Shown here in pieces: positions 1,476 to 20,681 of a stretch of 64,000 nt of DNA. The notes below the pieces were generated by a model. The model saw nothing but the letters and a program-made list of their open reading frames with translations. It had not been told where the DNA came from and ran no database searches. Within the stretch, counting starts at the first letter, position 1. Each line of letters begins with the position of its first letter. The position numbers were made by a program, and so were the translations under genes. The stretch spans positions 62,001-126,000 of the forward strand of contig JAADJD010000012.1 in the NCBI GenBank assembly GCA_013150955.1. Reading direction: 5' to 3'. The stretch is from Calditrichota bacterium. Its GTDB lineage: Bacteria > Calditrichota > Calditrichia > RBG-13-44-9 > J042.

Positions 1476-1527
1476 AATTCCTCCATCGTGATGTTTTTAT
1501 TATTTATCGAACACATAATCGATTTTT

Positions 1528-2565: not shown

Positions 2566-4042
2566 TGGGCTTTCCCTGCATTTTCGCTAATCCCTTTTTG
2601 AAGAACTCTGCAATTTCGATAAAGAATTCCCCCACAAATGCTTTCCGCCATACAAGGTGAGAAATCACCAGCATGGATCCAAAAATGATGGTTAACATCA
2701 GGGCTTTTATGGGACTGTATTCATCAAAATACTGACCCAATAAATGATTGCTTAAAAACGTAACCCCGAACGTTGGAACAAAATATAACCACAAATCCCA
2801 TTGATTGTTCAAAAAATCCTTGAATCCAAATGGAATCACTCGTGAGATTAAAAAGACCATGGCCAGCAGATAAAAGGCACTGCTAAAGACCACGGCAATG
2901 GCCACCCCATTGATGCCATACGGCAAACTGAGGAAGATGCTGCTTGCCAGCAAAAACCAGTACATGGATTGCACCATTGTCCACCGAAATACCCGCTTTT
3001 TTGCCATGACCACCGGATTAAAAATCACCACCATGGAATTGATCAACCCGGAGGCGCACATGATTTGCAAAGGCTGAATGGTGGGAATCCACTTGGGGCC
3101 GTATAAATTGTAGATTAATGCGGGAGCCAGAAAGAACAACAGTCCATGAATGGGATAGGAAATGACTCCAACACTCTGCAATACTTTATGGACACCGGCA
3201 CGAATTTTTTCGTCCTGATCCTGGATTTTCGAGTAGGCCGCAAAAAGAACCGCATTCATGTTACGCGCCACCCGCCGACGGGTCATATTCATCAAATTAA
3301 ACGCCCGTTCATAATACCCCAGCTGATCGGTGCCCAAAAATTTTCCAATGATGAAGTAATCCGTATTTTTAATAAAATAATTCAGGTAATTGGCCAGGGT
3401 AACGCCCAATCCAAATTTGGCCAGATCTTTTAACTTGGCAATGCTGAAACGCAGCCCCGGCAACCAGCGGGCATAAGCAAACAGCAAAATCAACCGAATG
3501 GCGTTACCAATCAGCATCCCCCAGACCAGGCTCCACACGCCAAATCCCAGAATGGCAAAAATCACCGCAATGGTAATGTTGATGATATTGCGAAGCAGTC
3601 GGGAGAAAGCCAGCTGTTTAAACTGAAGCCGTTTTTTCAGCAGGGCATCCGGCACACCGGACATGGCTTCAATGAAAAATGCCAGGGCTACCACAGGTAA
3701 GATAGACTCCAGCATCGGGCTTTCGAAAAAGGCCTGAACGTAGGGTGCAGTGACCACCACCCCAATAGTGATGACGGAATAAATAGCGAAATTAAACCAG
3801 AACATGCTGTCCACATGTCCACGATCGATTTCTTTTTTCTGCACCAGGGAAGCGCTAAACCCAAAATTTGCCAGCCGCTTGGCAAAATTGATGAAAATGG
3901 CCGCAATGCCCATCAAACCAAAATCCTGAGGAAACAGGATGCGTGCCAGGATGATGCTTCCCCCAAAACGCAACACCTGAATCCCCACATCGGCAATCAC
4001 GTTCCAGGCAATGCCGGCTTTTGCTTTCTCTCGAACGCCCAA
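2543..4042 (-). CDS. Polysaccharide flippase, MOP superfamily (Wzx-like)
   Basis: A 499-residue integral membrane protein with about 12-14 hydrophobic segments. It resembles the oligosaccharide flippases of the MOP superfamily (Wzx/RfbX, WzxC type), which move undecaprenyl-linked repeat units across the inner membrane. The N-terminal stretch GIAWNVIADVGIQVLRFGG and the following FPQDFGLMGIAAIF closely follow the 'W..l......v..ilLaRlLsPedFGl' signature of the polysaccharide_synt family. The start is a TTG that follows the stop codon of the GT4 gene with no gap, so the two are probably translated together. Its end overlaps the deacetylase gene. The role is supported by both sequence and neighbours. 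Confidence 0.88.
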   Translation of the reverse strand: MGVREKAKAGIAWNVIADVGIQVLRFGGSIILARILFPQDFGLMGIAAIFINFAKRLANFGFSASLVQKKEIDRGHVDSMFWFNFAIYSVITIGVVVTAPYVQAFFESPMLESILPVVALAFFIEAMSGVPDALLKKRLQFKQLAFSRLLRNIINITIAVIFAILGFGVWSLVWGMLIGNAIRLILLFAYARWLPGLRFSIAKLKDLAKFGLGVTLANYLNYFIKNTDYFIIGKFLGTDQLGYYERAFNLMNMTRRRVARNMNAVLFAAYSKIQDQDEKIRAGVHKVLQSVGVISYPIHGLLFFLAPALIYNLYGPKWIPTIQPLQIMCASGLINSMVVIFNPVVMAKKRVFRWTMVQSMYWFLLASSIFLSLPYGINGVAIAVVFSSAFYLLAMVFLISRVIPFGFKDFLNNQWDLWLYFVPTFGVTFLSNHLLGQYFDEYSPIKALMLTIIFGSMLVISHLVWRKAFVGEFFIEIAEFFKKGLAKMQGKPNESLAKK

Positions 4043-5440
4043 TTAGTCACCCCGTTCTTCTACGGTACTTAAAATTTCTTCCAGACGCCGAACGATGTTG
4101 GGAACCATGAATTTTTGCATTTCGCTGGCATCCGGTTGAAATCGGGGTTGCGGTTCCCGGCCAATGAATTCAAAAAATTCTATCAAAGACTTCCGGGAAT
4201 CGTTATAGGAGACCACCCCAACCCCCAATTGGTGAATCAGCTTTTCGCTAATGCTATGGGGTTCTACCACGCCCCAGATCGGTCGGGGAATGGTCAGGTA
4301 ATCAAAGAACTTCGCGGGTACCTGAATGCGGGTAACCGGTTGTAAAATCAAAAGCCAGTCCGCATCCTTCATGGCTGCCAGCGCCACTTCGTAGGGTTGA
4401 CTGGGAAGAAACTCCACCTGACTGGATAATTGATTTTCCTGCACGTAAGCATGCAGGTACTGTAAATCCGGTGTGATGTGCCCCAGAAATTTAAACCGAA
4501 TCCGCCGCGCAACCTCCGGCTGTTGCTCGCGAAATTGAATGAACGCATCAAAAATCTTACGGGGATCCCGTTTTTTGTACAATGTGCCCGCGTGAATAAT
4601 AACAATTTCATCCAATCCGCGGGTGGCCTTTGGTGCCAGCACCTGTTTTAAATCGGTGAACTGGGGATCAAATCCGTTGGTCAAAACCGCGCTTTTTTCC
4701 CGTATACCCGAATTGGGATAGCAGGATAGATACTCCTGTAGCAACACATCGTTATTAAAAATCAACACATCGGCAATTTTTAACGTTTTTTCTTCATAAC
4801 GTAAATCCAGGTACCGGGCGGTTTTCTCGTACAAATTTCGCACCTCTTTCGACCACTGGCTGCGTGCCCAGGGATCCCGAAAATCGGTAACATATGTAAA
4901 CGAAATAAGCCGTCTTAAGGCATTCAATGCAATGTAGGGAGAATGAGGCGGCGAGCTGGAAAACACGTATGGGATTTTGTGTTTTCGGATCAACCGGAAC
5001 GCGTGAAAAAACACCGGGATAATCCATCCGTTCTCCCGATCGGGATACTGCATCATTCGGGTGACAAACTCTTTGATTTGAAAGAAGAGCGAACCCCGCT
5101 GTGATTTTTCCGGTTTTGCTTTTGGCTTAACGGTAGCGGTGGCTTTTTCCGGTTTTTCGGTGGGGGCTTTGCGCTTTTTTCGGAAGAATCGCTTCAATCG
5201 ATCCCACCACAGAAACGGATCGATTTTACCGGTACGGATCACCTGCACCTGAGAATCCAGCAAAACCCCATAATCCACAATTTGCTGGCCAGGGTAGTAT
5301 TTTTCCTTCAGCGTCAGTACAAAAACTTCCCAGCCGTCCTGTTTTAAATATTTCATGAATTTCACCATTCGCTGGGTACCCACGGAAGGGCTGGGAGGGA
5401 AATGGGGGGTCACAAACAGGATTTTCTTTTCCCGCCTCAT
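4043..5440 (-). CDS. Glycosyltransferase family 4
   Basis: A 465-residue GT-B glycosyltransferase. The N-terminus KKILFVTPHFPPSPSVGTQR is the standard acceptor-side start of GT4 enzymes, and the Rossmann-type donor half includes IVIIHAGTLYKKRDP (near residue 285) and FLPSQPYEVALAAMKDADW. A low-complexity Lys/Pro/Glu-rich insertion at roughly residues 90-118 separates two parts of the N-terminal domain and looks like a flexible linker. The gene overlaps the upstream O-ligase gene by the four bases ATGA and abuts the flippase gene downstream, so it is embedded in one translationally coupled block. The sugar it transfers cannot be read from sequence. Confidence 0.87.
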   Translation of the reverse strand: MRREKKILFVTPHFPPSPSVGTQRMVKFMKYLKQDGWEVFVLTLKEKYYPGQQIVDYGVLLDSQVQVIRTGKIDPFLWWDRLKRFFRKKRKAPTEKPEKATATVKPKAKPEKSQRGSLFFQIKEFVTRMMQYPDRENGWIIPVFFHAFRLIRKHKIPYVFSSSPPHSPYIALNALRRLISFTYVTDFRDPWARSQWSKEVRNLYEKTARYLDLRYEEKTLKIADVLIFNNDVLLQEYLSCYPNSGIREKSAVLTNGFDPQFTDLKQVLAPKATRGLDEIVIIHAGTLYKKRDPRKIFDAFIQFREQQPEVARRIRFKFLGHITPDLQYLHAYVQENQLSSQVEFLPSQPYEVALAAMKDADWLLILQPVTRIQVPAKFFDYLTIPRPIWGVVEPHSISEKLIHQLGVGVVSYNDSRKSLIEFFEFIGREPQPRFQPDASEMQKFMVPNIVRRLEEILSTVEERGD

Positions 5441-6711
5441 GCGGCCTGTTCCTCCATATCCCGATTGATGATATTGGCCAGCACCACCGCCAGAGCCGCA
5501 TACCAGTACAACACCTCGGCATACAGCCGGTTGGTAAAAAATCCCGCGGTGAGCAAACCAATGATGGCCAGCTGAAGAGAAATCAGGTCATAATAATATA
5601 TTTTCCTCAATGCGGGAAACCGCTTGAGACGCACCTTTAGCCGGTGAATGACCAGGAAGGTATGAATTAAAAATCCCATGAACATGATGAACCCTGGAAT
5701 GCCCCAATCGACCCCTGCCAGCAAGAAGGTATTGTGCACCGTTCGGGCACCCTTTTCCTGCATTTTGGGAACCAGTTCCGGTACATAATCGAACACCAGC
5801 AAAGAAAAGCCTTCGTCGCCCACACCCAGGGGATAATCTTTAATTACATTGATGGCACCCCGCCACAGGTAGAAGCGGCTGGCTGCAGAGCCCTCTTCCT
5901 TTGGCGTAAGGGTGGTTTTCTGGCGCTCCCAGAACTGTTCGTTGGCCAGCCACAAGACCATCACCCCCGCGGCCACCAGCGCCAGGACGATTTTTAATTT
6001 TTCCTTTGGAGGGAATAAGATAAATCCCACAGCACCAATCATCAGCAGAGCCACAAAGGCGCCACGACTGTTGGCCAGGATCATCAGGTTAATGAGGAAA
6101 GGAACGGACAGAATGATGAACATTTTTAACCAGCGGTTTCCTCTCAAAAAGCGGGTACCAAAATAGGGCATGGTGCTTACCACATGGGCAGAGATGGCGT
6201 TTTCTTCGGTGGCGTTCGGGGCAATCACACCCAGGTAGCGATTGCTTCCCCGTTCATAGGCAATGCGCCCAAAATTGGCCACGCCCAGCATAAGGGTCAG
6301 AATAAACCAATCGTAATGCTTGCGTTCCCGAAGGATCAGGATGATCATTAGGTAAAACATGACGAATTTGGTAAATTCCCAGGTCTGCCTGAAACTCTCA
6401 TCCGGTCGCAAGGCCCAGCCGAAGGAGACAATGTACATCCAGGCCAGGAGAATGGCCAGCCAGAAGAATGGCCCCAGATAGATGTGGGGCATCTGCCGCA
6501 GCTTGTGGCGATTCAGGAAAAAGCTAATCAGGGTTACTATGCCAATCAGAAAGGGATACCGCAAATTGGGCACCGAATCTCCCCACCACATATATGGGGG
6601 ATGATTATGCCATTCGAAGACGTACAGCAAAATGCCAAATACTGGATTAAATAACGTCGCCACCATGCCGACGGCGAACACAAGCATAAAGGCGATTGCA
6701 GTGAGTGGCAT
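5437..6711 (-). CDS. O-antigen ligase/polymerase-like membrane protein, exosortase A-associated type
   Basis: A 424-residue membrane protein with about ten hydrophobic helices and the large periplasmic loop typical of the Wzy_C (O-antigen ligase) family. The N-terminal GILLYVFEWHNHPPYMWWG closely resembles the 'exosortase A system-associated O-glycosylation ligase' subfamily. The loop motif ILANSRGAFVALL and the later VHNTFLLAGVDWGIPG carry the conserved Arg and His found in ligases. It would polymerise lipid-linked units or ligate the glycan to an acceptor outside the inner membrane. ATG at 6711 has a GAGGG ribosome-binding site. It is coupled to the downstream GT4 gene by an ATGA overlap. 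Ligase and polymerase roles cannot be separated here. Confidence 0.8.
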   Translation of the reverse strand: MPLTAIAFMLVFAVGMVATLFNPVFGILLYVFEWHNHPPYMWWGDSVPNLRYPFLIGIVTLISFFLNRHKLRQMPHIYLGPFFWLAILLAWMYIVSFGWALRPDESFRQTWEFTKFVMFYLMIILILRERKHYDWFILTLMLGVANFGRIAYERGSNRYLGVIAPNATEENAISAHVVSTMPYFGTRFLRGNRWLKMFIILSVPFLINLMILANSRGAFVALLMIGAVGFILFPPKEKLKIVLALVAAGVMVLWLANEQFWERQKTTLTPKEEGSAASRFYLWRGAINVIKDYPLGVGDEGFSLLVFDYVPELVPKMQEKGARTVHNTFLLAGVDWGIPGFIMFMGFLIHTFLVIHRLKVRLKRFPALRKIYYYDLISLQLAIIGLLTAGFFTNRLYAEVLYWYAALAVVLANIINRDMEEQAA

Positions 6712-6734: not shown

Positions 6735-7955
6735 TTAACGAAACAACTTTCGGAAACGTTTAATCAACGCGTTCCACGCGCGTTTGCTCATTTTCCGCAA
6801 AAACTGAAAGAACGGTGCGGGATCGTCCCAGGAAAATTCCGCACAAACTTTCGGCCCACGGTAACTCCGAATCCACTGCCAGAAGGTTAAACTCCCCTCC
6901 CTGCGATACGCCAGAAAGGCACTCAAATCCCGTTCAATGGAAAACCATTTGACGCCGTCCGGGTAATCCGGTGGAATGTCGAAAGGTTCTCCAAGACTGT
7001 CCAGGTAATTAATAAAGGGATAGTTCACCCCACAGGATGGCTCCAGGTAATTCCACAGGCTGAAACGCGGATTCAGCTCGATGGCGAAATATTTTTCACG
7101 AACGGGATCCCATTTAAATTGAAAGCTGGACATACCACGATAGCCCAGATGGCGTAAAAATGCGTTGCCCATGCGGAAGATTTCCCCATCGTGAGCGGTT
7201 TCGATGAATGCTGCGGAACCGTGGTGAATGGGATCCAGGCGAATCTTATGCGCCAGAAAATTGATCATGGTCTGGCCATCGCGACTGGTGTAGGTGTGCA
7301 GCGAATATTCACAATCATCATCTCCCTGAATGAACTCCTGGATGACCATTCGGGAATCGTAGACAGCAAACTGCCGATAGGCATTCAGCAAGGCCTCGGG
7401 AGTATCCACCTTTACAATTTGAATGCGTCCAAAGCGCCGCCGGAATTCCGGTGAACGCCACACATGGGAATAATAGGGTTTGATGGCGCAGGGAAATTCC
7501 AGTTGATCGATTACCCGTTGAACATCTTCCACAGACTCCGCTGCAAAGGTACGCGGCACCGGCAACTGATATTGAAGTGCCAGTTCATAAAATCCTTCCT
7601 TGCTGGTCACTTTCTGGATCACCTCGTGGGGGGGAATGACAAACTTAAACCGCCTGGCCAACCGCTCCCGATGTTGGGAGATGACCATCACGGTCACATC
7701 CGTAGTGGGCAATAGAACCCCCGGTGTACCCAGCCCATCCTGAAGGGATTCCAGATACTGGAGATAGGCTTCCGTTTGCTCAATGGGATCCGGCGCCTGA
7801 AAAGCCGTGGCAAAACGCGATGCTCCGGATACGGGATCGGGCAGGGATTGAATCAAATAAGTGGGCACACCCTGTCGCCCCAGTGCCTTAACAACCCCCA
7901 GCGCATTAATGGATTCACCCAAAACAAATGCCGTTGCCGAATATGCGGTCTTCAT
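6735..7955 (-). CDS. ATP-grasp carboxylate-amine ligase-like protein (first of two)
   Basis: A 406-residue ATP-grasp protein. The N-terminal pre-ATP-grasp domain begins with AFVLGESINALGVVKALGRQ, and the grasp core includes FPCAIKPYYSHVW near residue 155 and the metal-binding IELNPRFSLWNY near residue 315. Such enzymes activate a carboxylate as an acyl phosphate and couple it to an amine or thiol. It is paralogous to the ATP-grasp protein at 11400-12590. Both have a G-V-N-x-P segment after the metal site and the same C-terminal tail pattern (FWQW, then YRG, then a basic amphipathic end). Sitting among glycan genes, it may attach an amino acid to a sugar carboxylate or make such a building block; that is inference. 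The ATG has a GGAG ribosome-binding site. Confidence 0.82.
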   Translation of the reverse strand: MKTAYSATAFVLGESINALGVVKALGRQGVPTYLIQSLPDPVSGASRFATAFQAPDPIEQTEAYLQYLESLQDGLGTPGVLLPTTDVTVMVISQHRERLARRFKFVIPPHEVIQKVTSKEGFYELALQYQLPVPRTFAAESVEDVQRVIDQLEFPCAIKPYYSHVWRSPEFRRRFGRIQIVKVDTPEALLNAYRQFAVYDSRMVIQEFIQGDDDCEYSLHTYTSRDGQTMINFLAHKIRLDPIHHGSAAFIETAHDGEIFRMGNAFLRHLGYRGMSSFQFKWDPVREKYFAIELNPRFSLWNYLEPSCGVNYPFINYLDSLGEPFDIPPDYPDGVKWFSIERDLSAFLAYRREGSLTFWQWIRSYRGPKVCAEFSWDDPAPFFQFLRKMSKRAWNALIKRFRKLFR

Positions 7956-7999
7956 TCGCTCCCTGCGTTTATTTGATCGATGGATGGTATCTTTACCGA

Positions 8000-9124
8000 T
8001 CAGGTTCTGGCCAAAATCTTCTTAATCACCGGAGCCATTCGCTTCCGGTATTTGTAGTAGGTCAGATAGGTCTGTCCTTTAAAGGAATTGGGAAGGGTAA
8101 TCAAATAAATGTATCGATCCACCGTTCCCCAGTCTTTTTTATATTGTTCGCCCCCGCGCATGAAATCGAAAATGGATTTGCCCTGCTGAATGGCATACTG
8201 GATGGCTTCGGCCAGTATGACGGTACCGGGACTGCGATTCGACCAGGCCGGATCAAAACCCGCCTGAAAATACGCCAATGATCCGTTGTAATCGAAGCAA
8301 TACAATCCCGCTATTTTTTTCCCGTCCGCGGCAATCAAATTAAAAATTTTAATGTACCCCCGGGGCGCCAGCCGTCGGGCCATCTTCTGGTGAAAATCCA
8401 GGCGCTGCTCCCGGACAAACTTTGTATTCAACCCTTTCTGTTGAGCCCGCAGGTAGTGCAAATCAAAAATATCTTTAATGGCCGTGTCCAGTTCTTCCTG
8501 GCGATCTAAAATTTCCAGCCGCGCCTGTTCTTTTTCCAGCAGCCGACGCACCCGCCGGCGCACATTGTAACGGAAATTTGAGCTCAACGTCTTTAAATAG
8601 GCATCAAAGGAATCCGGCAACTGCACATAAGGGCATACCCGATACGGTTCCACAAACGTGGTACCATTCCGGGGCGTGCCGAACAGCTGGAAAACCAGAC
8701 TTTCCGACAGACAGTTGTTGATCTCGATGACGTCCGCACCTTCAGCAAGCGCCCGAAGATCCGCATACAGATGTTGCCGAAAATAAGGATGGTAATCTTC
8801 CGGGGAAATGACATCCAGATAATCCGAGGATTCGATCTGGGTGCCCAGAAAAGCCATCTTCCGCAACGGAATGGGCCCTACATGGGACGTATAAAGGTAA
8901 TAGGGCAACACTGCGGCAAGCTTTCCCTGATCGTAATACGCCAGAATTCGAAGCTCTGCATTTTTCAAGCGAGCATGATACACTTCCCACCAGGTGTACA
9001 TCCATTCCCAGGTCATAAAAATGTTATGCTCGGGAATGCGGGTTAATAACTGATGCCAATCGGCTTTGAGTTCCCGGAATGCTTCGGTCGTTCGAATGAT
9101 TTGCTTGTTCAGTTGAACAGACAT
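8000..9124 (-). CDS. GNAT/FemAB-like acyltransferase (CelD/BcsL type)
   Basis: A 374-residue member of the double-GNAT family that includes CelD/BcsL-like and BioF2-like proteins. The N-terminal half carries HNIFMTWEWMYTWWEVY, and the C-terminal GNAT fold ends with SIFDFMRGGEQYKKDWG, the signature 'dF..G...yK..w' of the family. These enzymes transfer acyl or aminoacyl groups, often onto polysaccharides or lipid-linked sugars. It has no membrane segment, so it is probably cytoplasmic. A gap of 45 bp separates it from the downstream ATP-grasp gene, consistent with co-transcription. The 189 bp upstream, before the GT2 gene, show nothing recognisable. The exact acyl donor is unknown. Confidence 0.8.
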   Translation of the reverse strand: MSVQLNKQIIRTTEAFRELKADWHQLLTRIPEHNIFMTWEWMYTWWEVYHARLKNAELRILAYYDQGKLAAVLPYYLYTSHVGPIPLRKMAFLGTQIESSDYLDVISPEDYHPYFRQHLYADLRALAEGADVIEINNCLSESLVFQLFGTPRNGTTFVEPYRVCPYVQLPDSFDAYLKTLSSNFRYNVRRRVRRLLEKEQARLEILDRQEELDTAIKDIFDLHYLRAQQKGLNTKFVREQRLDFHQKMARRLAPRGYIKIFNLIAADGKKIAGLYCFDYNGSLAYFQAGFDPAWSNRSPGTVILAEAIQYAIQQGKSIFDFMRGGEQYKKDWGTVDRYIYLITLPNSFKGQTYLTYYKYRKRMAPVIKKILART

Positions 9125-9313
9125 CCTTTTCTTATCCCCCTTCCTTCATCCCTGAAACGAACCCGCTATCTAATTGCGAATTCGTTTCTATACTCGACCA
9201 AATTTTCAGATTTCTAATTCCCATCTCCATAATTTATTTAAAAATCACCCGCACGTCAAAGCACGATGCCGCACCCTGAATTCTCACAGAACCCGCCAGT
9301 AAACATCGGGGGA

Positions 9314-10495
9314 TTATCCCTGATTGACCCGGACATGATCCCATTTTACATACTTCTTCCCCCGGAAATCATCCACGATGCCCAGAAAGGCGGCCAGGTT
9401 GATCAGGTGGTAATAGTATGGTAAGTAAAAGAGAATGGGAATGGGTTTTCCTTTTCTGTCCAGGTAATATCCGATAAGCGAAAACAAAACAAACAGGATT
9501 TCCAGAATTAAAACCACCCGGAAAAAGAGGGAATCGCTGAGTAAATTGATGGCAATGGTGGTAACATAGATGGTCAGCAGGAACACCCAATTAAACCAGC
9601 GGATAACTTTGTGAGAAAACAGCAGGAACAGGAATTTCCATTGTTTGCGAACATCGAACAATTTCAGGTATTTTTTGAATGCCCGCCAGCTGCGGTTAAC
9701 AATCCGCCGTTTGCGCCAGTATTCTTTGAGAAAATCGCTGGCGGCATATTCGTAACAGACGGCATGCGGATTAAAGACCCCGCGATAGCCTTTTGCCACA
9801 ATCTGCAGGGGATTCACAAAGTCGTTGATATCGTCTGCATGCAGCCGATCAAACAGATGCCGGCGAATGGCGTAGATGGCCCCGTCTCCGCCGACCACGG
9901 AATGGAAATCGGATTCCAGCTTTTTTATCCACAATTCGTACTTCCAGTACACGTTCTCACTGAAACTGGCGGGTGAGGTATCTTCTTCCAGATAAACCGC
10001 TTTGCCAACCACATATCCCACCCGATCATCGGCAAAGAAGCGCACCAGCTCGTGGATCGCATTTTTTTCATACATCGCATTGGCATCGGAGAAGATGACG
10101 ATATCGCCACTGGCACGATCCACTGCCAGATTTAATCCCGCCGTCTTCCCTCGACGCTCCGGCATGCGCAGAAGCTGAATCCGCGGATCCCGTTCCATCC
10201 AGCGCTGCACAATCTTATCGGTACCATCTGTGGAAGCATCCGAAACCACCAGAATCTCCAGCTTCTCTGCCGGATAGTCCAGTTCCACCGCATTCTGCAA
10301 TTTTTTATCCATTACGGCGGCTTCATTGAAAGCGGAAATAATCAGCGTTACCGCCGGTAAATCTTCCTGAGCAGTGGGTTGAACCCGATTCCGCTTTAAT
10401 AGTTGATAAGCGTACAAAATCAACGGATACAGCACATAATTATAAACCAGCAGAAAAACCGACACCCAGAATAATCCATACAAAATGGCCATCAT
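9314..10495 (-). CDS. Membrane-anchored glycosyltransferase family 2
   Basis: A 393-residue processive-type GT2 enzyme. One N-terminal hydrophobic segment (about residues 3-25) is followed by the GT-A domain. It starts with VTLIISAFNEAAVM, has VVSDASTDGT near residue 84 and the metal-binding IVIFSDANAMYEK near residue 133, and ends with an RRRIVNRSWRA-like motif corresponding to the (Q/R)xxRW region. Three or four C-terminal membrane segments begin near residue 290. Such enzymes polymerise or transfer sugars at the inner face of the membrane. Tandem ATG codons follow a GAGG motif. It lies 122 bp downstream of the phosphoesterase gene in the same orientation. The donor sugar is not evident. 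Confidence 0.87.
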   Translation of the reverse strand: MMAILYGLFWVSVFLLVYNYVLYPLILYAYQLLKRNRVQPTAQEDLPAVTLIISAFNEAAVMDKKLQNAVELDYPAEKLEILVVSDASTDGTDKIVQRWMERDPRIQLLRMPERRGKTAGLNLAVDRASGDIVIFSDANAMYEKNAIHELVRFFADDRVGYVVGKAVYLEEDTSPASFSENVYWKYELWIKKLESDFHSVVGGDGAIYAIRRHLFDRLHADDINDFVNPLQIVAKGYRGVFNPHAVCYEYAASDFLKEYWRKRRIVNRSWRAFKKYLKLFDVRKQWKFLFLLFSHKVIRWFNWVFLLTIYVTTIAINLLSDSLFFRVVLILEILFVLFSLIGYYLDRKGKPIPILFYLPYYYHLINLAAFLGIVDDFRGKKYVKWDHVRVNQG

Positions 10496-10617
10496 ATCGC
10501 CTCAATCCCTTCGTCTGCATCTATTTTTGTGAATGCACGTCAGAAAGAAAACATTCCGCCACCTGACTGTCACATTCTGTAATTTTAGTCCCCCAATTCG
10601 AAATTCAATCCTTCCCC

Positions 10618-11403
10618 CTACTTCGAAAGGGTATAATAAAACTTGCGGATGCGTTCTCTCAATTGCGCCGGCAGTCGACGAATCGAAAATCCGCCAAATA
10701 CCTCACGGTTCCGACGGGCAAGCAGCTGTTCCTCTTCATCGGTCAATCGAAATGGGTGGTAGGTTACCTGCTGGTTAACGGTATCGTACACCACAAAACT
10801 GAATGGTAAACCGTGCCGGGGAACCCCCACCGTACCCGGATTAATCAGATAATACCGATCCGTTTCAATCGTAATGCGGGATACCTCCTGCAGCCGTTCG
10901 ATGGTCTGGCATTCGCGATCGGCAACGAAAGCTTCCGGACGATGGGTATGCCCAAAAAAGACAATCTGCAAGCGGCGCTCTCGCATACCTTCGAAATTTC
11001 TCCTCGCCTTCTCCACGGTATTCACCGTCTGCTTCACATCCCACAAATTGGCATGCACACATACTACCTGATCATCCAGCGAAAGGGAAAACGGTAAATT
11101 TTGTAAAAATGCTTTTTCTTCCGCTGACAACAAATTTCGGGTTACTCTCAATGAATGCTGGGCCCGTTCGGCTATCCGGGAAAAACCGGACAACTCCCCC
11201 AATAACAATCCTTCGTGATTTCCTTTAACACAGGGAATGGAATAACGGCGGATGCGCTCAATACACTCCCGTGGGAACCCATTGTATCCCACCAGATCCC
11301 CCAGGCAGTAGAGGCGATCGATGGCGTTCTGCCGGGCAAATTGCAATACCCGCTCTAACCCAAATAAATTGCCATGAACGTCAGAAAAAATGAGATATTT
11401 CAT
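10618..11403 (-). CDS. Calcineurin-like metallophosphoesterase (YfcE-type)
   Basis: A 261-residue metallophosphoesterase. The binuclear metal-site motifs appear in order: IFSDVHGN at residues 5-12, CLGDLVGYN near residue 35, VKGNHEG near 60, VCVHANLW near 115 and VFFGHTHRPEA near 148. This is the complete D-x-H / GD / GNHE / H / GHTH set, so the enzyme should be active on a phosphodiester or phosphomonoester. Its ATG overlaps the stop of the upstream ATP-grasp gene by ATGA, so the two are translationally coupled. That pairing suggests it acts on a product of the ATP-grasp enzyme or on a phosphorylated glycan precursor. The substrate cannot be assigned. Confidence 0.88.
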   Translation of the reverse strand: MKYLIFSDVHGNLFGLERVLQFARQNAIDRLYCLGDLVGYNGFPRECIERIRRYSIPCVKGNHEGLLLGELSGFSRIAERAQHSLRVTRNLLSAEEKAFLQNLPFSLSLDDQVVCVHANLWDVKQTVNTVEKARRNFEGMRERRLQIVFFGHTHRPEAFVADRECQTIERLQEVSRITIETDRYYLINPGTVGVPRHGLPFSFVVYDTVNQQVTYHPFRLTDEEEQLLARRNREVFGGFSIRRLPAQLRERIRKFYYTLSK

Positions 11404-12590
11404 CCCAGCATCCGGCGTATGCGTCGAAAAACCCCTTTGATGGTCATGCGAATGCCATAAAGCACCGGGGGAAGATCATCCAGTGCCAGCGTTTTATAAA
11501 TCCGTTTACCCCGGTAGGTTTGCAGCCACTGCCAGAAACTGATTTTCCCCTTCTGGCGCAATTCCCAGAAGGCCTGGACATCATTCACAAAATTAAACCA
11601 GACAATGTCCTTGCGCCAATTCGTTACCTGCCCGTTCATGGGCATTCCGATCAGGTACTGGTAGGCCAGGTAAGGAATGTTCACCCCACCCCGCGCCCCC
11701 AGATAATGCCACATATTGTACCGGGTGGGATTGAGTTCCAGTAAGTACAGTTTGCCCGTTCGTTCGTCCAGTTTGTAATCAATCTTAATCGGCCCTTTAA
11801 ATTGGATGCGTTCCAACAACTCCAGGCTCATTTCCACCACACCGGGATAATCGGTTAATCGCAACGCGCAGCTTTCGCCATAATCGCTGGGATATGTACG
11901 GATCTTCCGCCCCACAAAATATCCCAGCGGTTGGGACGTTTCGGTAAAAAAACTGTGGAAACTGATGATATTGGATTCCGGGCCAGGAATGTATTGTTGC
12001 ACCACATATTCAATATTTTCTTTTTCCACCAGCTCCCGTACTTCCTGGAACTGGTCGGCATTCTCGATGAGGATTCCCTTGTAATGCTTACCGCCATATC
12101 GCCTCACCGCTTCACTGTCGAACCAATTCAAACGAATGATGGGCTTGATCATCACCGGATACTCCAGCTGGCGCGCATCATCCAGCTCCTGCCGGGAATA
12201 AGTAGCCGGTATGGGAAATTTATTTTTACGCGCAAAATCAATAAATTTTTCTTTATTTAGAATCGTTTCCAGCACATCCTTATCAACGGAGACGAAGCGA
12301 AACATCCGGCGCATGTCCTCCCAGTACTTCAACATCATTTTCAGATGCCCATCATTACTACAATAAAATGGATGGCCTTCACCAATTTCTTCAACGATTT
12401 TCACCAGCGTCTGGAATGCCCCTTCCATATCCTTTTCGGGATTGGGCATCTGATACCCCCGGATGCATTTCCGGGAATAGGTAATGCGTAAATCGCCGCG
12501 GGAGGTAATCCCCACAAAGGGCACGCCGGCCAGGGTAAAGCACCGCCCTAACATTAAATTGCCAATAACCACAGGAACGTTTTTATCCAT
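11400..12590 (-). CDS. ATP-grasp carboxylate-amine ligase-like protein (second of two)
   Basis: A 396-residue ATP-grasp protein. A GTG lies directly before the ATG at 12590. I chose the ATG because an AGGTG motif lies just upstream. The pre-grasp domain starts VPVVIGNLMLGRCFTLAGVP. The grasp core has YPVMIKPIIRLNWFDSE near residue 145 and the metal/ATP motif LYLLELNPTRYNMWHYLG near residue 290. It is a diverged paralogue of the protein at 6735-7955, with the same GGVN-x-P motif and the FWQW / YRG C-terminal extension. It is coupled to a metallophosphoesterase by an ATGA overlap. Relatives include D-aspartate ligase-like and predicted carboxylate-amine ligases. A role in amino-acid decoration of the polysaccharide is inference from context. 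Confidence 0.82.
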   Translation of the reverse strand: MDKNVPVVIGNLMLGRCFTLAGVPFVGITSRGDLRITYSRKCIRGYQMPNPEKDMEGAFQTLVKIVEEIGEGHPFYCSNDGHLKMMLKYWEDMRRMFRFVSVDKDVLETILNKEKFIDFARKNKFPIPATYSRQELDDARQLEYPVMIKPIIRLNWFDSEAVRRYGGKHYKGILIENADQFQEVRELVEKENIEYVVQQYIPGPESNIISFHSFFTETSQPLGYFVGRKIRTYPSDYGESCALRLTDYPGVVEMSLELLERIQFKGPIKIDYKLDERTGKLYLLELNPTRYNMWHYLGARGGVNIPYLAYQYLIGMPMNGQVTNWRKDIVWFNFVNDVQAFWELRQKGKISFWQWLQTYRGKRIYKTLALDDLPPVLYGIRMTIKGVFRRIRRMLG

Positions 12591-12680
12591 CACACCTTTT
12601 CTCTATTTCTAACTTCCATGAATGGCCCGTTGATTTGGTGAGTCCTTTCAAGCGGGATAACCTTTCGAGCGGTTAACCAT

Positions 12681-13042
12681 AAACCCGGATTATGCATTTG
12701 CCTACGAATAACACGAATTAACACAAATAAAACCCAAATAACGAGTTAAACCACGAATCACGCGAATGAATTCGAATAAAATCAACAAAATAGCGAATAT
12801 ATCCAGGAAAACATTTTCATTCAGATAGAATCAAGACATTTTCATTCAGATAGAATCAAGTGCATTCTATTATTTTTATTGGTGTTAATTCGTGTAATTC
12901 GTGGTTTTAATGCATAATCTGGGTAAAAATAATCCATTGGATTATATCTGGATGAGAATGTGTTCCGGAGCTTATTCGCGACTTTGTGAACATTTTTTGA
13001 AAGAATTCACCAGATTCGCGGCTTCAAGCATCATCCGGGTTA
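12681..13042. repeat. Nested intergenic repeat, copy 1
   Basis: This fills most of the 531-bp gap between the second ATP-grasp gene and the FemAB-like gene; no gene is visible in it. An outer element (Y to X) begins at 12681 and is interrupted after 'aacacaaataaaa'. An inner element (X to Y, about 12731-12922) is inserted there, and the outer one resumes with 'aaaaataatccattgg' and ends near 13042. The inner copy carries a perfect tandem duplication of a 25-bp unit at 12811-12835 and 12836-12860. Confidence 0.85.
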
Positions 13043-13121
13043 AAGGATAGTCGTGAATTGGCGGTAAAAGTTACATTCAGATTCCATGAAGGTAGGCCAT
13101 TCCGGGTTAAGATTCAAAAGG

Positions 13122-14168
13122 CTATGCCGGAATATTGCGAATAATATAAGGCCCCACGGTATTGGTAAAAATTAACGGCATCTTCTGCCACACACGAACC
13201 ATCATCTCGTAGCGCGGATTTCGAGGACTGATCTCTGGCAGGGACTCTCCTTCCGGCAATGCGTAATACCAGTACAGTTGTTTCTCTTCCGCACCCCATT
13301 GTTTCTTAAATCGACAGGTGCCACTTCCGGGAGTACAGCGGCCAAAGTCAAACACCTTGCATCCTTTGTGAATCGCCAGCTTTAACGATTCCCAGTACAA
13401 CAACATGTTTGGACTGAAGCGGTTGTAGGCTTTCAACGACGATGCCCAGGGAATTTCCATTACCGATTTGTACTGAATGAGAAAGGATGCGGCTACGGGA
13501 ATGTCCTCATCGCTGTAAACCACCACGATGAAGGCATTCTCCGGAAAACGATTGAGAATGTTTTGAAAGAAGGATTTGCTGTATACTGGTGTACCCAGAT
13601 CTCTCATATTGTGTGAAAAAACATAATAAAAGTCGTCCACCAGATCCACCCCTCCAGAACGCACAAACATGTGCTCTTTTAAGGGACGGCGAATCTGGCT
13701 CCGCAGCTTGGATTTGAAAGACGTCCAGAGTGCCTCATCCTCAGCAGGGAGTGGTAACAAGTAGGTGACCTTGTGGGTTTTCACGGCCAGCGGTGTCTCA
13801 AACGGGCGATGCATCCGTAATTCCACATATTCAATGTCCAGCTGTTTTCTGAAATCTGCTAAAAACCGCGCTACGTCAGCCATTAAATCATCCTGCTGTA
13901 ACAGAGGCCCCCCGTAATTGACAAACGGGAGGGAAACCGCAAACTTCCCAAAAAACAGGGATTTAAAGTGGGTAATGGGCAATACCCCAACAATTTCCTG
14001 ATTCGGGTTGCGGAACACCACATAATAGGGATGGTGGCCAAACGTCTCCCAGATCATTTCGTTCCAGGAGCTGAGATGATACAGCCGACTGTCCGGATGT
14101 TGCTCCACAAATGCATCCCACCCGGAAGGCGGCTTATGACTGACTTCGATGGTAATCGGATTGCTCAT
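13122..14168 (-). CDS. FemAB-family protein, PEP-CTERM/exosortase-locus type
   Basis: A 348-residue FemAB/GNAT-fold protein. It has the N-terminal GWDAFVEQHPDSRLYHLSSW segment typical of the 'FemAB family PEP-CTERM system-associated protein' group. Further on are the LRSQIRRPLKEH basic stretch near residue 160 and the C-terminal KVFDFGRCTPGSGTCRFKKQ motif near 270-290. Family members are thought to transfer amino acids or acyl groups in exopolysaccharide or peptidoglycan assembly. The ATG starts one base after the stop of the BY-kinase gene, so the pair is translationally linked. It is distinct from the second GNAT-like protein at 8000-9124. The acceptor is unknown. Confidence 0.82.
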   Translation of the reverse strand: MSNPITIEVSHKPPSGWDAFVEQHPDSRLYHLSSWNEMIWETFGHHPYYVVFRNPNQEIVGVLPITHFKSLFFGKFAVSLPFVNYGGPLLQQDDLMADVARFLADFRKQLDIEYVELRMHRPFETPLAVKTHKVTYLLPLPAEDEALWTSFKSKLRSQIRRPLKEHMFVRSGGVDLVDDFYYVFSHNMRDLGTPVYSKSFFQNILNRFPENAFIVVVYSDEDIPVAASFLIQYKSVMEIPWASSLKAYNRFSPNMLLYWESLKLAIHKGCKVFDFGRCTPGSGTCRFKKQWGAEEKQLYWYYALPEGESLPEISPRNPRYEMMVRVWQKMPLIFTNTVGPYIIRNIPA

Positions 14169-14169
14169 C

Positions 14170-16524
14170 TTAGTAATTGTAATAGGAATACTGGTATTGA
14201 TTCTTTTTCAGATCGACTTTCACCGCATTGAGAATCAATCCCATAACTTTCCGTTGAAGATTGGGATACTCCTCGATTTTTTGCACCAGATGATCCACAT
14301 TGGTGGTACCGGCCCGGATCACAATCAGCACGGCATCCACATAATTGGACAGGATGGCACCATCGGAGCTGGCCTGAAACGGTGCCGTATCCAGAATAAT
14401 CATCCCGAATTTCTTCCGCAGCACGCTCAACAGCATGGCCATTCGCTCCGACCCCAGCATTTCCGTGGGATTGGGAATGGGTGAACCAGCAGTAATGAGA
14501 TACAAATTGGGGATAAACGTGTTTTGAATCAGCTTGCTCAAATTCTCGTAATCCACTGTGGCATTGGAAATCAGGAAATCGCTCAATCCCGGTTTCTTTT
14601 TATTCCCGAAGACATTGTGCAACACCCCGCGACGCAAATCCGCATCGATTAACAGGGTGGAGATTTTCTGCTGGGCGATGGTAATGGCCAGATTGGCAGC
14701 CGTCAGGGACTTGCCTTCGTTGGGACGCAGGCTGGTTACAATGAATGAGGAAAAATCCTGATTCTGATTCATGTACAGGATTTTCGTCCGAAGATCCCGA
14801 TACGACTCGGATTCCAGGGTGGGTGAGTAATCCAGGGTAATCAGCTTTGGATCGCGTTTGCCCTTAAGTTCCTCAAAATCATCCGGTAATTCCTTGTCAT
14901 CTTTAATAATGGGAATGCTTCCCAGCACGGGATATTTCACGCGGGTTTGCAATTCATCGGCGTTCTGCACGGTTTTATCGAAGAATTCGATGACCAGGGC
15001 CAGACCAAATCCCAGTCCCAGTGCAATGAAAATCCCCACCAGGCCTTTTTTAATGATCACCGCCAGCACTCCCTGAGGCGGTGGAGGCGTTCCGTAATCC
15101 ACGATGAATACGTCACTGACTTCCACCTCATTTTCGATTTTGGCGGCATTGTACCGCGCCAGAATGCGCCGATACAGATCGTTTTTCACTTCCTGATCCC
15201 GAAGCAGTTCGGCGAGTTCAAGTTCCTTGGCCGGCAATTTCCGGAGCTTTGCCCTCTCGGAAGCAATCTTGGATTGAATCTGTCGCTTGCGGGATTCCAG
15301 TTTGGAAATGTGATCTCGCGCAGCCGCCTCTATCTTCATGAACAAATTGTTGAATTGCTGTTCGTTTTCCTTCACAAAGGGATGCGACATGGCATACTGG
15401 CTCAACAGGTCGTTGCGTTTGGCTTGCAGCTCGGCAAATTCGCTGCGAAAGGCGGTGGCCGTGGGCACGCGTTCCGTTTCCAGGAAGGTCAACAATTCCC
15501 GGGCAGCAGAAATTTTTTCATCCATATCCGTAGCCTGCCGCATGCGGCGAATCAATCCCTGCAAATCCTCGATCTTCAAATCGATTGAATTGATGTTGTC
15601 TTCCAGCGAGGCTACCGAGCTAACCCGCATGCCAGCATCGGCGGTTAAAACCACCCAGGGATACCGTTCCCGAAAGCGTTTCAACCGATCATTTGCCGCA
15701 TCCAGATCTTTCTTGGCCAGTTGTAACTGATCTTCCAGGATGCGCAAAACCTCATCACTCTTATAACGTTTCATTTTAAGATTCAACTGGACGAATAGCT
15801 CCGCCAGGGTGTTCACGATCTTGGCGGCCATATTGGGATCTTTGTGACGGGCCGTGATGGTCAAAATGGTCTGATACCGATCCAGTTTATATTCGATCGT
15901 TCGACGGAGCCACTCGATGGCCAGTTTAAAATCGTTAATTTTAAACTCGACCTCCTTTAGCTTCTTGCGCTGAAAAATCTCTGGCCGGAGTACAAACCAG
16001 AAATTGTTCACCCGAACCGTATCGCCGGGACGAAAACGCGCAATCAAACTGTCCGAAATGTCCCGTTTCTTATCCGTATAAAGCAATTTAAATCCCCCAC
16101 CGTCTGGGACAATCTTGTACATTCCGGGAATTGAAGAGCGATTGACCATTACGGTATCAAACAAATCATGACGCCGGACGCCGTCGGTAACCATGGACAG
16201 GTTAAGCTGTAATTTTTCCACCACCTGTCCCAGTAAAAGATTCGTCTTAATTAAACTGGCCTTCCCCACGTTTATGGGGCGCCGTTCCACCACACCAACC
16301 GCACTCATGCTCCGTGGATCCTGAAACGTCAACAGAGCGGTGGAGGTGTAGGTGGGCTTCCCCTGAAAAACGATGACAAATGCCATCCAGAACAGGAAGA
16401 AAATGAAGGATGTAACAACGATGATCCACTTGCGCTTTTGTAAAATTCTTAAATACTTCTTAATTTCATTTTCGGTCTGTCCGGAAACCTGACCAAATCC
16501 ATTATTTTTGCTGTTTGAACTCAT
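14170..16524 (-). CDS. Polysaccharide co-polymerase fused to BY-kinase (Wzz/Wzc-type tyrosine autokinase)
   Basis: A 784-residue chain-length regulator with a cytoplasmic tyrosine kinase. A Wzz domain starts near residue 20, with membrane helices at about 33-54 and 485-515 and long coiled-coil-like stretches at about 250-290 and 360-450 in the periplasmic part. The kinase has Walker A PNEGKS at 601-606, Walker A' LLIDADLRR at 624-632 and Walker B MIILDTAP around 708-715. The last eight residues hold a tyrosine cluster (Y777, Y779, Y781, Y782, Y784), the usual autophosphorylation site. It works with the Wza-like protein encoded 20 bp upstream to set polymer length and export. All catalytic motifs look intact. 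Confidence 0.93.
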   Translation of the reverse strand: MSSNSKNNGFGQVSGQTENEIKKYLRILQKRKWIIVVTSFIFFLFWMAFVIVFQGKPTYTSTALLTFQDPRSMSAVGVVERRPINVGKASLIKTNLLLGQVVEKLQLNLSMVTDGVRRHDLFDTVMVNRSSIPGMYKIVPDGGGFKLLYTDKKRDISDSLIARFRPGDTVRVNNFWFVLRPEIFQRKKLKEVEFKINDFKLAIEWLRRTIEYKLDRYQTILTITARHKDPNMAAKIVNTLAELFVQLNLKMKRYKSDEVLRILEDQLQLAKKDLDAANDRLKRFRERYPWVVLTADAGMRVSSVASLEDNINSIDLKIEDLQGLIRRMRQATDMDEKISAARELLTFLETERVPTATAFRSEFAELQAKRNDLLSQYAMSHPFVKENEQQFNNLFMKIEAAARDHISKLESRKRQIQSKIASERAKLRKLPAKELELAELLRDQEVKNDLYRRILARYNAAKIENEVEVSDVFIVDYGTPPPPQGVLAVIIKKGLVGIFIALGLGFGLALVIEFFDKTVQNADELQTRVKYPVLGSIPIIKDDKELPDDFEELKGKRDPKLITLDYSPTLESESYRDLRTKILYMNQNQDFSSFIVTSLRPNEGKSLTAANLAITIAQQKISTLLIDADLRRGVLHNVFGNKKKPGLSDFLISNATVDYENLSKLIQNTFIPNLYLITAGSPIPNPTEMLGSERMAMLLSVLRKKFGMIILDTAPFQASSDGAILSNYVDAVLIVIRAGTTNVDHLVQKIEEYPNLQRKVMGLILNAVKVDLKKNQYQYSYYNY

Positions 16525-16544
16525 ATCTTATCCCCAAATCGTTT

Positions 16545-17282
16545 TTATCTCCTGATCAAAATTGTTCTTTGATAGGTGTAGTAAAGGGTGAACAATGTGG
16601 TAAACATGGTCACCACCGGCATGTAGCGGAGTATTTTATCCATCAAACCTGGCTTCCCTGGTGTTTTAACCCAGATTTGATCTCCTGATCGAAATCCCAT
16701 GGTGCGCAAGGAGGTTCCTTTTTGCAGGTACGGAATCAGGTCCTTCTGAATGATCTTGCGATCCCGTTCCCAGCGCATTTCTTTCAGTCCTTCCTCGTCC
16801 AGGGTTCCCCCCACGCGATGCATGACTTCCCACAAGGTCATATCCGGATCCACATAATAAAACCCCGGACGCGGCACGCCACCCAGAACACTGATCCGAA
16901 TCATCGGGCGTACCACGATGTACGGATACCGTAAATAGTCCTTAAAATTTTCCTGAATGAACTCGATGAATTCCTGTTTGGACATATCGGTGATTTTTAC
17001 CTTTCCAATAATGGGCAGATCGATGTACCCGCGATCATCGATCGGGAAGACCTGATTCAAAAACGAGGTGGTGTCTGGAAATACCGAGATTTCCACCGCA
17101 TCCCCGGGAACAAAAACGGATTTCTTTACCGTAAATGCCTGAGGTGCCTTCGGCGTGCTGGCCTCACTTCCGGTATTGAGCACGGGCATGGCCCACCCTA
17201 TTTGAGGGGTCATCAACAAAAGACCAATGAGGAGCACCACAACGGGCTTCAACCATCGGGTCTGTTTGACATGTCGAATCAC
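16545..17282 (-). CDS. Polysaccharide export protein (Wza-like, SLBB domain)
   Basis: A 245-residue export protein. I chose a GTG start at 17282 because TTGGAGG lies five bases upstream; an in-frame ATG at 17297 overlaps that site and has no ribosome-binding site. The N-terminus is a signal peptide or anchor (WLKPVVVLLIGLLLMTP). The Poly_export domain starts at about residue 40 (FVPGDAVEISVFPDTT) and has the DDRGYIDLPIIGKV motif, followed by an SLBB-like repeat (ISVLGGVPRPGFYYVDPDMT). A hydrophobic segment lies near the C-terminus (MPVVTMFTTLFTLYYTY). No lipobox is seen, unlike classic Wza. It lies between the STAS gene (24 bp away) and the BY-kinase gene and probably forms the outer part of the export channel. 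Confidence 0.88.
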   Translation of the reverse strand: MIRHVKQTRWLKPVVVLLIGLLLMTPQIGWAMPVLNTGSEASTPKAPQAFTVKKSVFVPGDAVEISVFPDTTSFLNQVFPIDDRGYIDLPIIGKVKITDMSKQEFIEFIQENFKDYLRYPYIVVRPMIRISVLGGVPRPGFYYVDPDMTLWEVMHRVGGTLDEEGLKEMRWERDRKIIQKDLIPYLQKGTSLRTMGFRSGDQIWVKTPGKPGLMDKILRYMPVVTMFTTLFTLYYTYQRTILIRR

Positions 17283-17306
17283 TCTAACCTCCAACATTTT
17301 TCCAAA

Positions 17307-18170
17307 TTAACAGGACCGGTAATAGCGATATCGCTTTTCTTTGGTATCCAGTTCCAGCTGTTTTAATAATCGGCGCAATTTGAAATAGCCAATTTTAACG
17401 TTTCCAAATTCCGGGTGACGCAACATTTTCCGGATTTTCCAGGGCCCGAAATGCGGAAACTGGGCAACAATCGCACGGACCTTTTCGGGCAGTGGCAGAA
17501 TTTTAAAATCCGGAGGTCGTTCCACGGTTACCGGATTGAATTCCACATGCACCTTGTCCCGGGTGTCGCCACCAATGTTGAGGTCCTTCTCCACCACATC
17601 TTCCAGTTCGATATCGATGTCTTCCTCGATAATCTCCGGTTCCTCGTGCTGGTTGTTATTATTGCTTCCACCAATCTGTTCCAGAATATCGTTGATTTCG
17701 GTGGTTGAAGTCTCCACTTCCTGCTGAGGTTCACTGGCCTCTTCCCGCGTTTGACGGGCCTCATCCACATGGGTTACCGACGGCTTGGCATTCGCAGGTT
17801 CCTGGCCATGGGTAAAGCTGGCCAGGGCTTCTTCCACGGAGGGGTACTCTGACAGAATGTGGTAAAATTCCAGCATCTGATAGACTTCGTAAATTTCCGG
17901 GCTCATGTTCACCAGTTTGATGTCGCCCCCATTCTCCCGGAATCGCTTAATTTCTCCGATCAACACGCCCCAGCCGGCACTACTCATATAAACCAGATCC
18001 TTCAAATCGAAAATCAGTTTATAAGTGCCGCTTTCCAGGCTGTTGTCTATGGTTTTCTGGAGCAAATGCACGTTGGCCTGGTCGACGTATCCACTTAACT
18101 CCACCAGGGCAATCTGGCCATCTTCATCCAGAAATTTGGTTTCGATTTTGATTCCTTCTTGATCGATCAT
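17307..18170 (-). CDS. STAS-domain protein with DNA-binding-like C-terminal tail
   Basis: A 287-residue protein in three parts. Residues 1-115 form a STAS domain of the anti-sigma-factor antagonist type, with the phosphorylatable-serine loop VYMSSAGWGVLIGE near residue 60. Residues about 120-205 are a very acidic, low-complexity linker. Residues about 215-287 are basic and helical. They include HFGPWKIRKMLRHPEFG and KLRRLLKQLELDTKEKRYRY, a pattern like the paired helices of winged-helix or homeodomain-like DNA-binding domains. A regulator that switches partners through STAS and binds nucleic acid through the tail would fit, but the tail assignment is by eye. It starts the Wza/BY-kinase block, with a 331-bp gap upstream. 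Confidence 0.75.
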   Translation of the reverse strand: MIDQEGIKIETKFLDEDGQIALVELSGYVDQANVHLLQKTIDNSLESGTYKLIFDLKDLVYMSSAGWGVLIGEIKRFRENGGDIKLVNMSPEIYEVYQMLEFYHILSEYPSVEEALASFTHGQEPANAKPSVTHVDEARQTREEASEPQQEVETSTTEINDILEQIGGSNNNNQHEEPEIIEEDIDIELEDVVEKDLNIGGDTRDKVHVEFNPVTVERPPDFKILPLPEKVRAIVAQFPHFGPWKIRKMLRHPEFGNVKIGYFKLRRLLKQLELDTKEKRYRYYRSC

Positions 18171-19358: not shown

Positions 19359-19360
19359 AT

Positions 19361-20395: not shown

Positions 20396-20681
20396 AAAAA
20401 TCGATTGCGTTGTGTATAGCTCCGCCACGTCAATTACAGTCGCCAAATATAGCAGGAGCCCCACCCGGTAAAATGATTCACCTCACAGAAAAAAATGGGT
20501 TAAATTTATCGTAAACAATATTTATCGCGCCCTAACGGAGCTCAATACTATTTTCGAAACCTGCCCTGGAATAATTAGGTCTTTTTTATTTCCCGGGGCC
20601 ATCGGGTGCCAGGACGTTTTAAAAATTCATTACGTTATACAGGGCCGCTTTATTAAATTAAACCAAAAATTGAAAACAGGA

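Follow-up and report, generated by a model that had tools for sequence, protein, structure and literature searches.

Closest described systems

The nearest counterparts to the genes analyzed here are two glycan systems, in Campylobacter jejuni and Clostridioides difficile, and the XrtA/PEP-CTERM class of exopolysaccharide (EPS) loci. Our subject is a pair of overlapping genes coding for an ATP-grasp ligase (B) and a predicted calcineurin-like metallophosphoesterase (MPE), together with the FemAB-type transferase gene upstream of them. They lie within positions 6735 to 14168 of a 64,000-nucleotide stretch of DNA (the window; positions 62001 to 126000 of contig C23, JAADJD010000012.1) from the 4.07-Mb genome of a Calditrichota bacterium (G000; GCA_013150955.1). 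In the C. jejuni HS:2 capsule, the ATP-grasp domain of Cj1438C is reported to amidate glucuronic acid with serinol phosphate or ethanolamine phosphate, and Cj1435 to remove the phosphate, a step required before further chain extension (PMC11800379, PMC13276843). The genes reported for the type B flagellin glycan of C. difficile include CDR20291_0244 (FemAB), CDR20291_0245 (ATP-grasp), and CDR20291_0246, with the ATP-grasp gene needed for the terminal peptidylamido sugar (PMC5207246). That glycan contains an amino sugar and carries an amino acid-type taurine-Ala-Gly cap, according to the companion report (PMC5207245).

The window resembles both systems in part. Cj1438C and Cj1435 act in turn in capsule synthesis, placing an amide on a sugar and removing a phosphate before extension; B and MPE likewise pair an ATP-grasp ligase with a predicted phosphatase. 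Cj1438C, termed TupA-like, also carries a fused glycosyltransferase, Cj1435 is a HAD phosphatase whereas MPE is calcineurin-like, and no FemAB is mentioned in the portions of the reports examined. As in C. difficile, a FemAB-like gene and ATP-grasp genes of the carbamoyl phosphate synthetase (CPSase)-like kind stand in a glycan locus. The C. difficile glycan decorates flagellin and is not an EPS, the partner there is ornithine cyclodeaminase-like, and no phosphatase is seen in the available text (PMC5207246). A first-pass annotation of the window had stated that no standard set of this kind is part of Wzx/Wzy pathways. The view that no such set is known is unsupported, because these two analogues exist and because an XrtA-type FemAB and deacetylase score over their family cut-offs in the same locus.

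All six open reading frames of positions 6735 to 14168 are open at the coordinates below:

13122..14168, minus strand: FemAB-type transferase, XrtA/PEP-CTERM-associated equivalog (TIGR03019, 355.4 bits, cut-off 260.35; PF02388)
11400..12593, minus strand: ATP-grasp B, of the MPE-partnered clade, probable start ATG 12590 (PF15632, 24.5 bits, under the cut-off of 29.1; assigned from the fold of its predicted model)
10618..11403, minus strand: predicted calcineurin-like MPE, ATGA overlap with B (PF12850, 71.4 bits)
9314..10495, minus strand: GT2 glycosyltransferase (Pfam/NCBIfam), found after MPE in 9/10 Calditrichota B loci
8000..9124, minus strand: GNAT/FemAB-like transferase adjoining A (PF13480, 111.9 bits)
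6735..7955, minus strand: ATP-grasp A, CPSase-like, a distant paralogue of B without an MPE partner (PF02786, 29.6 bits, cut-off 19.8)

B and MPE were found together across three phyla; their active sites are kept, their genes overlap, and in Calditrichota they always follow FemAB. Our preferred reading, to which we give about an even chance, is that B and MPE form an obligate amide-forming decoration cassette at a variable slot behind the XrtA-type FemAB of a Calditrichota Wzx/Wzy EPS locus.

Conservation of the B-MPE pair

Neighborhood conservation, which the first-pass annotation had proposed as a check on the ATP-grasp/phosphoesterase pair, extends far beyond the genome of origin, to other Calditrichota, to Azospirillum, and to G348, a genome of another phylum. 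The annotation's counter-case of genes found together in this genome only is thereby ruled out for the pair. A B orthologue (43 to 81% identity) was recovered from 10 of 40 Calditrichota genomes. In all 10 it is adjoined by MPE and directly preceded by a TIGR03019 FemAB (in G018 the locus is split over two contigs, and FemAB and B were read across two contig ends); GT2 is the next gene after MPE at nine of these loci. The ATGA coupling of B to MPE that the annotation had pointed out is a 4-base overlap. Among the 10 Calditrichota junctions, the overlap is 4 bases in six and 1 base in four; at the G027 junction the ATGA was read by eye, the computed value of -70 stemming from an upstream choice of MPE start.

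A tblastn search of 72,556 plasmids returned 43 records matching B and 115 matching MPE. Both matched in 10 Azospirillum plasmid records, and their coordinates place them side by side in every one. Six Azospirillum loci from five records were read: MPE stands next to B in all six, and a GNAT gene stands next to B in five (PF13480 in L058). The GNAT, ATP-grasp, and MPE genes are conserved in L115 and L117 (55 to 70% to L058) while the flanks differ, which argues that the three form a unit in Azospirillum. L064, a second copy on the same record as L058, lies in a glycosyltransferase locus and has the ATGA overlap. The EPS locus of G348 contains a deacetylase, B, MPE, and a GNAT, with the pair in reversed order (MPE and then B).

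In a search of 385 genomes, 13 outside the phylum matched at E ≤ 1e-25, with MPE adjoining in 1 of the 13; the phylum searches around G348 and G175 covered 3 and 4 genomes, so large phyla were thinly sampled. No MPE was seen beside relatives at four loci on Deinococcus, Cytobacillus, Priestia, and Halobaculum plasmids. Scanning genome contigs for B with two strict peptide patterns yielded nine loci, in records titled Calditrichota or simply "bacterium." Neighbor labels came from hidden Markov models built from these loci and cover stretches of ≤25 kb, with contigs ending nearby in L104, L108, L111, and L112.

Phylogeny of the paired genes

The pairing of B with MPE is not due to chance. In a tree of 46 ATP-grasp proteins, the 17 rows partnered with an MPE (that is, with an MPE ≤300 bases away) all lie on one side of a branch with support of 97/99, and the other 29 rows, among them A and 12 of the 13 genome matches from outside the phylum, show no neighboring MPE. 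Partnership accounts for one change on this tree, compared with a mean of 14.0 in shuffles. Rows were taken at scores of >35 bits from searches that started from A and B; branches are long, and one of 47 candidate rows (L110_4653_-) was left out. On the MPE tree, 15 partner MPEs group apart from 9 nonpartners (support, 90/88), the latter drawn from 8 hand-picked plasmid loci among the 115 records. Five of these eight loci are arsenic-resistance gene clusters.

The ATP-grasp proteins

Structure prediction, suggested for the ligases in the first-pass annotation, gave AlphaFold models of A and B that resemble CPSase-like and amino acid ligase structures, and on these models both proteins are ATP-grasp folds. 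The B model (predicted local distance difference test [pLDDT], 85.6) matched 2pn1 (Z, 23.8; root mean square deviation [rmsd], 3.2; 288 aligned), the L-amino acid ligase 3vot (Z, 21.5; rmsd, 4.1; 313 aligned), PurK (Z, 21.4), and PylC (Z, 20.8). The A model (pLDDT, 90.1) matched 2pn1 (Z, 27.2), PurK (25.8), PylC (24.1), and 3vot (24.0); for both models, matches ≤1 apart were counted as ties, and the common fold says nothing on substrate. No TupA ATP-grasp family was among the matches listed for A or B at E ≤ 0.1 in a comparison with family models. PHROGs gave no match for the ligases or the transferases.

Residues K114, K150, D272, E286, and N288 of B are kept in 12 of 12 alignment rows, as are K119, K159, E293, and N295 of A, which has Q279 where most others have E. 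From what is known of the ATP-grasp superfamily in general, we assign ATP and metal roles to these positions. Ligases lacking such residues, which the annotation had raised as a counter-case, are thus not what the alignment contains. Also invariant in B and its relatives are S211, H213, K230, R232, T233, Y234, P235, and N293-x-W295-H296, with H213, K230, and R232, which are candidates for a possible phosphate pocket, invariant in 12/12 rows. In the three B proteins of family f1, the metal motif (B residues 286 to 293) is ELNPTRYN and has a residue more than in the other B proteins, where it is ELNPRYN.

A and B share 25% identity over 395 residues (E, 9e-48), FWQW..YRG stretch included, in keeping with their earlier description as paralogues with a shared C-terminal extension. 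The extension is not private to the two, however, as its W/G/D(D)P pattern is common to the whole ATP-grasp group to which they belong. Comparison with the orthologue in L033 makes the ATG at 12590 a likelier start of B than the GTG at 12593. In an EPS locus of G031, an ATP-grasp is fused to a low-molecular-weight protein tyrosine phosphatase (LMW-PTP) domain (L045:13675-15426; PF01451, Wzb-like), which links an ATP-grasp to an unrelated phosphatase.

The phosphoesterase

Judged by its sequence, MPE is a calcineurin-like metallophosphoesterase. D8, H10, D36, N62, H63, H117, H152, and H154 are invariant in 11 of 11 rows and presumably correspond to the metal ligands of the calcineurin-like D-H / D / N-H / H / H-H motif. 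A search of the PDB with the family profile matched 3rqz (E, 2e-32), and MPE has distant matches to serine/threonine phosphatases. These distant matches could be read to mean that MPE dephosphorylates a protein, the Wzc tyrosine kinase, and is chemically unrelated to B; a Wzc-type kinase is encoded nearby, all three LMW-PTP genes in the genome are on other contigs, and the G031 fusion brings an ATP-grasp and an LMW-PTP together in an EPS locus. We consider this highly improbable, since MPE overlaps B and stays with it in Azospirillum loci that have no Wzc match, no MPE is labelled in the Wzc-bearing loci of G001, G006, G009, and G010, and the LMW-PTPs elsewhere in the genome could serve Wzc.

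Plasmid relatives of the window MPE in L121, L123, L124, L125, and L126 lie in arsenic-resistance clusters (arsB/ACR3, arsC, arsM, arsH), with a GNAT gene alongside in L125.

FemAB and the variable slot behind it

The FemAB protein contains two PF02388 stretches and matches FemX (E, 3.7e-8). By its equivalog score it is of the XrtA/PEP-CTERM type, and aminoacyl transfer, as by FemABX enzymes, may be its activity. Like the XrtA/PEP-CTERM EPS loci, to which the models TIGR03019, TIGR03006, and TIGR03098 belong, the locus has a FemAB and a deacetylase over the curated cut-offs. In contrast to those loci, its Wzc and Wza proteins do not reach the cut-offs specific to XrtA, and no XrtA model matches the ATP-grasps or MPE. 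Exosortase (PF09721) had no match in the genome of the window and none over cut-off in the 40 genomes of the phylum, on which ground XrtA/PEP-CTERM protein sorting was rejected as the function.

The locus around FemAB is syntenic across Calditrichota, and the gene or genes right after FemAB differ. B-MPE occupies this slot in 10 genomes, a GNAT with a DegT/DnrJ/EryC1-type aminotransferase occupies it in G001, G003, and the second locus of G028, and a GNAT occupies it in G034. The slot is empty in G006, G009, and G010, where GT2 directly follows FemAB, and is otherwise arranged in G025, G024, G030, and G038; the G032 contig is too short for reading. Since an aminotransferase together with an N-acyltransferase is what is expected for making and acylating an amino sugar in nucleotide-sugar pathways, this pattern hints at a slot for genes of alternative amide or N-acyl decorations. 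Family f5 genomes also encode a LarA-like racemase, which is present elsewhere without B-MPE, and an AMP-forming ligase that resembles TIGR03098 (390.7 bits against a cut-off of 592).

The position of FemAB right upstream of B at all 10 Calditrichota loci is also consistent with a route closer to that of C. difficile, in which a deacetylase of the locus frees an amine, B ligates an amino acid straight onto it, FemAB adds a further residue, and MPE only clears phosphate from a sugar precursor or by-product. Two deacetylases are encoded in the locus, and a deacetylase or PIG-L gene lies ≤1.5 kb from 8 of 47 relatives. The C. difficile flagellin-glycan locus has both FemAB and ATP-grasp genes, and the ATP-grasp mutant is reported to lose its peptidylamido cap (PMC5207246), which consists of taurine, alanine, and glycine on a glycan with Fuc3N (PMC5207245). 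We regard this route as rather unlikely, because it leaves unexplained that MPE, not FemAB, is the invariant partner of B: in Azospirillum and G348, a PF13480 GNAT or none stands beside B, and no TIGR03019-like FemAB does. The C. difficile locus, moreover, shows no phosphatase in the portion of the account available.

Proposed chemistry of the B-MPE cassette

If B and MPE form an amide-forming decoration cassette, B would activate a carboxylate with ATP as an acyl phosphate and then form an amide. One ligation partner would be phosphorylated, for example, an amino-alcohol phosphate or a phospho-amino acid, and MPE would afterwards strip the phosphate, so that the chain could be extended or the group could become a substrate of FemAB or a GNAT. 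The acceptor may be a sugar of the repeat unit. A uronic acid carboxylate is possible because the same run of genes includes a UDP-glucose dehydrogenase homologue, and a freed amine is possible because the locus has two deacetylases. We propose this combined mode (amidation with a phosphorylated partner, dephosphorylation, and perhaps acylation) because a coupled ligase and phosphatase stand beside FemAB in an EPS locus. A general idea attributed to Iyer et al. in 2009 is that surface polymers receive peptide decorations from ATP-grasp and GNAT ligases whose genes are linked.

Several points weigh against this reading. FemAB is commoner than B (TIGR03019 over cut-off in 25 of 40 genomes and B in 10 of 40), and B is under the cut-off of its best Pfam family (PF15632 ATPgrasp_Ter, 24.5 versus 29.1), with its relatives L058 (35.3) and L097 (32.5) over it. 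UDP-glucose dehydrogenase is present in the locus of the window's own genome and of G026 and absent from the f5 stretches read. No cassette-specific gene for synthesis of a phosphorylated amine was seen at the loci, and the APH-type kinase left of the window appears to be a core gene, because it also occurs in the G001 and G009 loci, which have no B-MPE. The likeness to Cj1438C/Cj1435 is one of logic and not of demonstrated descent, because the phosphatase there is a HAD enzyme and the ligase TupA-like. The amide chemistry is inferred by analogy, and the substrates named above are candidates. Finally, the Azospirillum copy type of L058, L059, and L116 lies outside a glycosyltransferase locus, beside 5'-nucleotidase-like and sensor (histidine) kinase genes, so the target of the pair need not be a polysaccharide.

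This last arrangement, in which the GNAT, ATP-grasp, and MPE genes have no glycosyltransferase neighbors, might suggest that the product of the pair is a soluble small molecule, or its target a protein, and that the place of the pair in EPS loci is historical. The best Pfam match of B, PF15632, is named after the ATP-grasps of Ter operons, and Ter operons are tied to a nucleoside-like metabolite. We think this quite unlikely, given that polysaccharide genes surround the pair in all 10 Calditrichota genomes that have it, in G348, and at the Azospirillum copy L064.

A broader form of the decoration-cassette reading, which we put forward tentatively and at somewhat less than an even chance, is that B and MPE are a movable ligase-phosphatase cassette that evolved independently of Cj1438C/Cj1435, ligating a phosphorylated block to a glycan and then unmasking it. 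Its GNAT-fold partners (FemAB or PF13480) would be interchangeable, its acceptors would be glycans in Calditrichota and perhaps non-glycans in Azospirillum, and the phosphate on/off step would gate polymer extension. What appears to be new is the obligate pairing, in three phyla, of a B-clade ATP-grasp with a calcineurin-like phosphatase; the pair is not described in the open-licence literature searched, on ATP-grasp with FemAB/exopolysaccharide or on metallophosphoesterase. Should the reading hold, amidation of surface glycans by a ligase followed by a phosphatase would have arisen on more than one occasion, with phosphatases that are not related, and a B-clade ATP-grasp beside MPE would serve as a simple genomic marker of such decorations where glycan structure is lacking. 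The variable slot after the XrtA-type FemAB would gain a function, as would the EPS of Calditrichota, most of which are uncultured. The gene pair itself is well supported, and the chemistry is inferred from it.

ATP-grasp A and its neighboring GNAT

Close A orthologues with the GNAT side by side were found in 3 of 40 genomes of the phylum, all of the window's own family, and B with MPE was found without A in other genomes. A single six-gene module was rejected on these grounds: B with MPE (and FemAB) and A with the GNAT are two separate units. The undescribed decoration module proposed in the first-pass annotation therefore holds up as a sensible decoration idea, though not as one unit, and its parts are of kinds already known. 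A and the GNAT at 8000 to 9124 may add amide decorations to the same EPS independently, as a second unit. Of the two proteins earlier described as double GNATs, FemAB has two such stretches (PF02388), whereas the protein at 8000 to 9124 has a GNAT match in its C-terminal half only. A search of solved structures with the profile of the latter found nothing relevant, the two matches at E of ~0.006 being RNA-binding proteins.

A-like ATP-grasps on Cytobacillus/Priestia plasmids (L061:9896-11071 and L062:9941-11116) lie in a run of PIG-L deacetylase, GT4, ATP-grasp, and phosphotransferase-type kinase genes, a run that recalls the logic of bacillithiol/mycothiol synthesis.

Locus setting and neighboring genes

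The studied genes lie between a Wzc/Wza/sugar-phosphate-transferase block (14170 to 20464) and a Wzy/GT4/Wzx-like/deacetylase/epimerase block (495 to 6711). The remaining features of the locus are as follows:

18501..19358, minus strand: polysaccharide deacetylase of the XrtA system (TIGR03006, over the equivalog cut-off), which might supply free amines
14170..20464, minus strand: locus core, with a Wzc-type kinase, a Wza-like export protein, a STAS protein (labelled by eye), a deacetylase, and a polyprenyl sugar-phosphate transferase
12594..13121, no strand: intergenic; local insertion holding a dispersed repeat
2543..6711, minus strand: Wzx-like flippase (labelled by eye, no family match), GT4, and Wzy_C polymerase/ligase
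1528..2565, minus strand: second polysaccharide deacetylase (PF01522)

To the left of the window, the gene run goes on with GT4s, two sulfotransferases, the APH-type phosphotransferase, a heparinase II/III-like protein, and the UDP-glucose dehydrogenase homologue (L152, C23 43000 to 62900), so the window covers the middle of a long EPS locus. The EPS polymer is plausibly sulfated and uronic acid containing. The APH kinase, the heparinase, a GT4, and a 328-amino-acid protein without a Pfam match recur in other Calditrichota EPS loci. The APH-type kinase and the heparinase were considered as specific partners of B and MPE and rejected, as both are present in G001 and G009, which lack the pair. 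A conserved protein of ~350 amino acids, mostly without a Pfam match, occurs in the Calditrichota EPS core (L128:13558-14622 and relatives, U355); one member of this group, L130:11918-12982, has a subthreshold GNAT match.

The gap between FemAB and B is 528 bases here, compared with ~11 to 180 bases in relatives. It reflects a local insertion, because most of it is a dispersed repeat: window positions 12640 to 13000 (361 bases) have 144 matches genome-wide. The repeat has inverted-repeat arms, and its core, GTTAATTCGTG, occurs in 7 copies in the window versus 0.01 expected. Elsewhere in the window, two paralogous genes labelled by eye as prephenate dehydrogenase-like (22450 to 23214 and 25140 to 25988) lie near an aromatic amino acid biosynthesis cluster.

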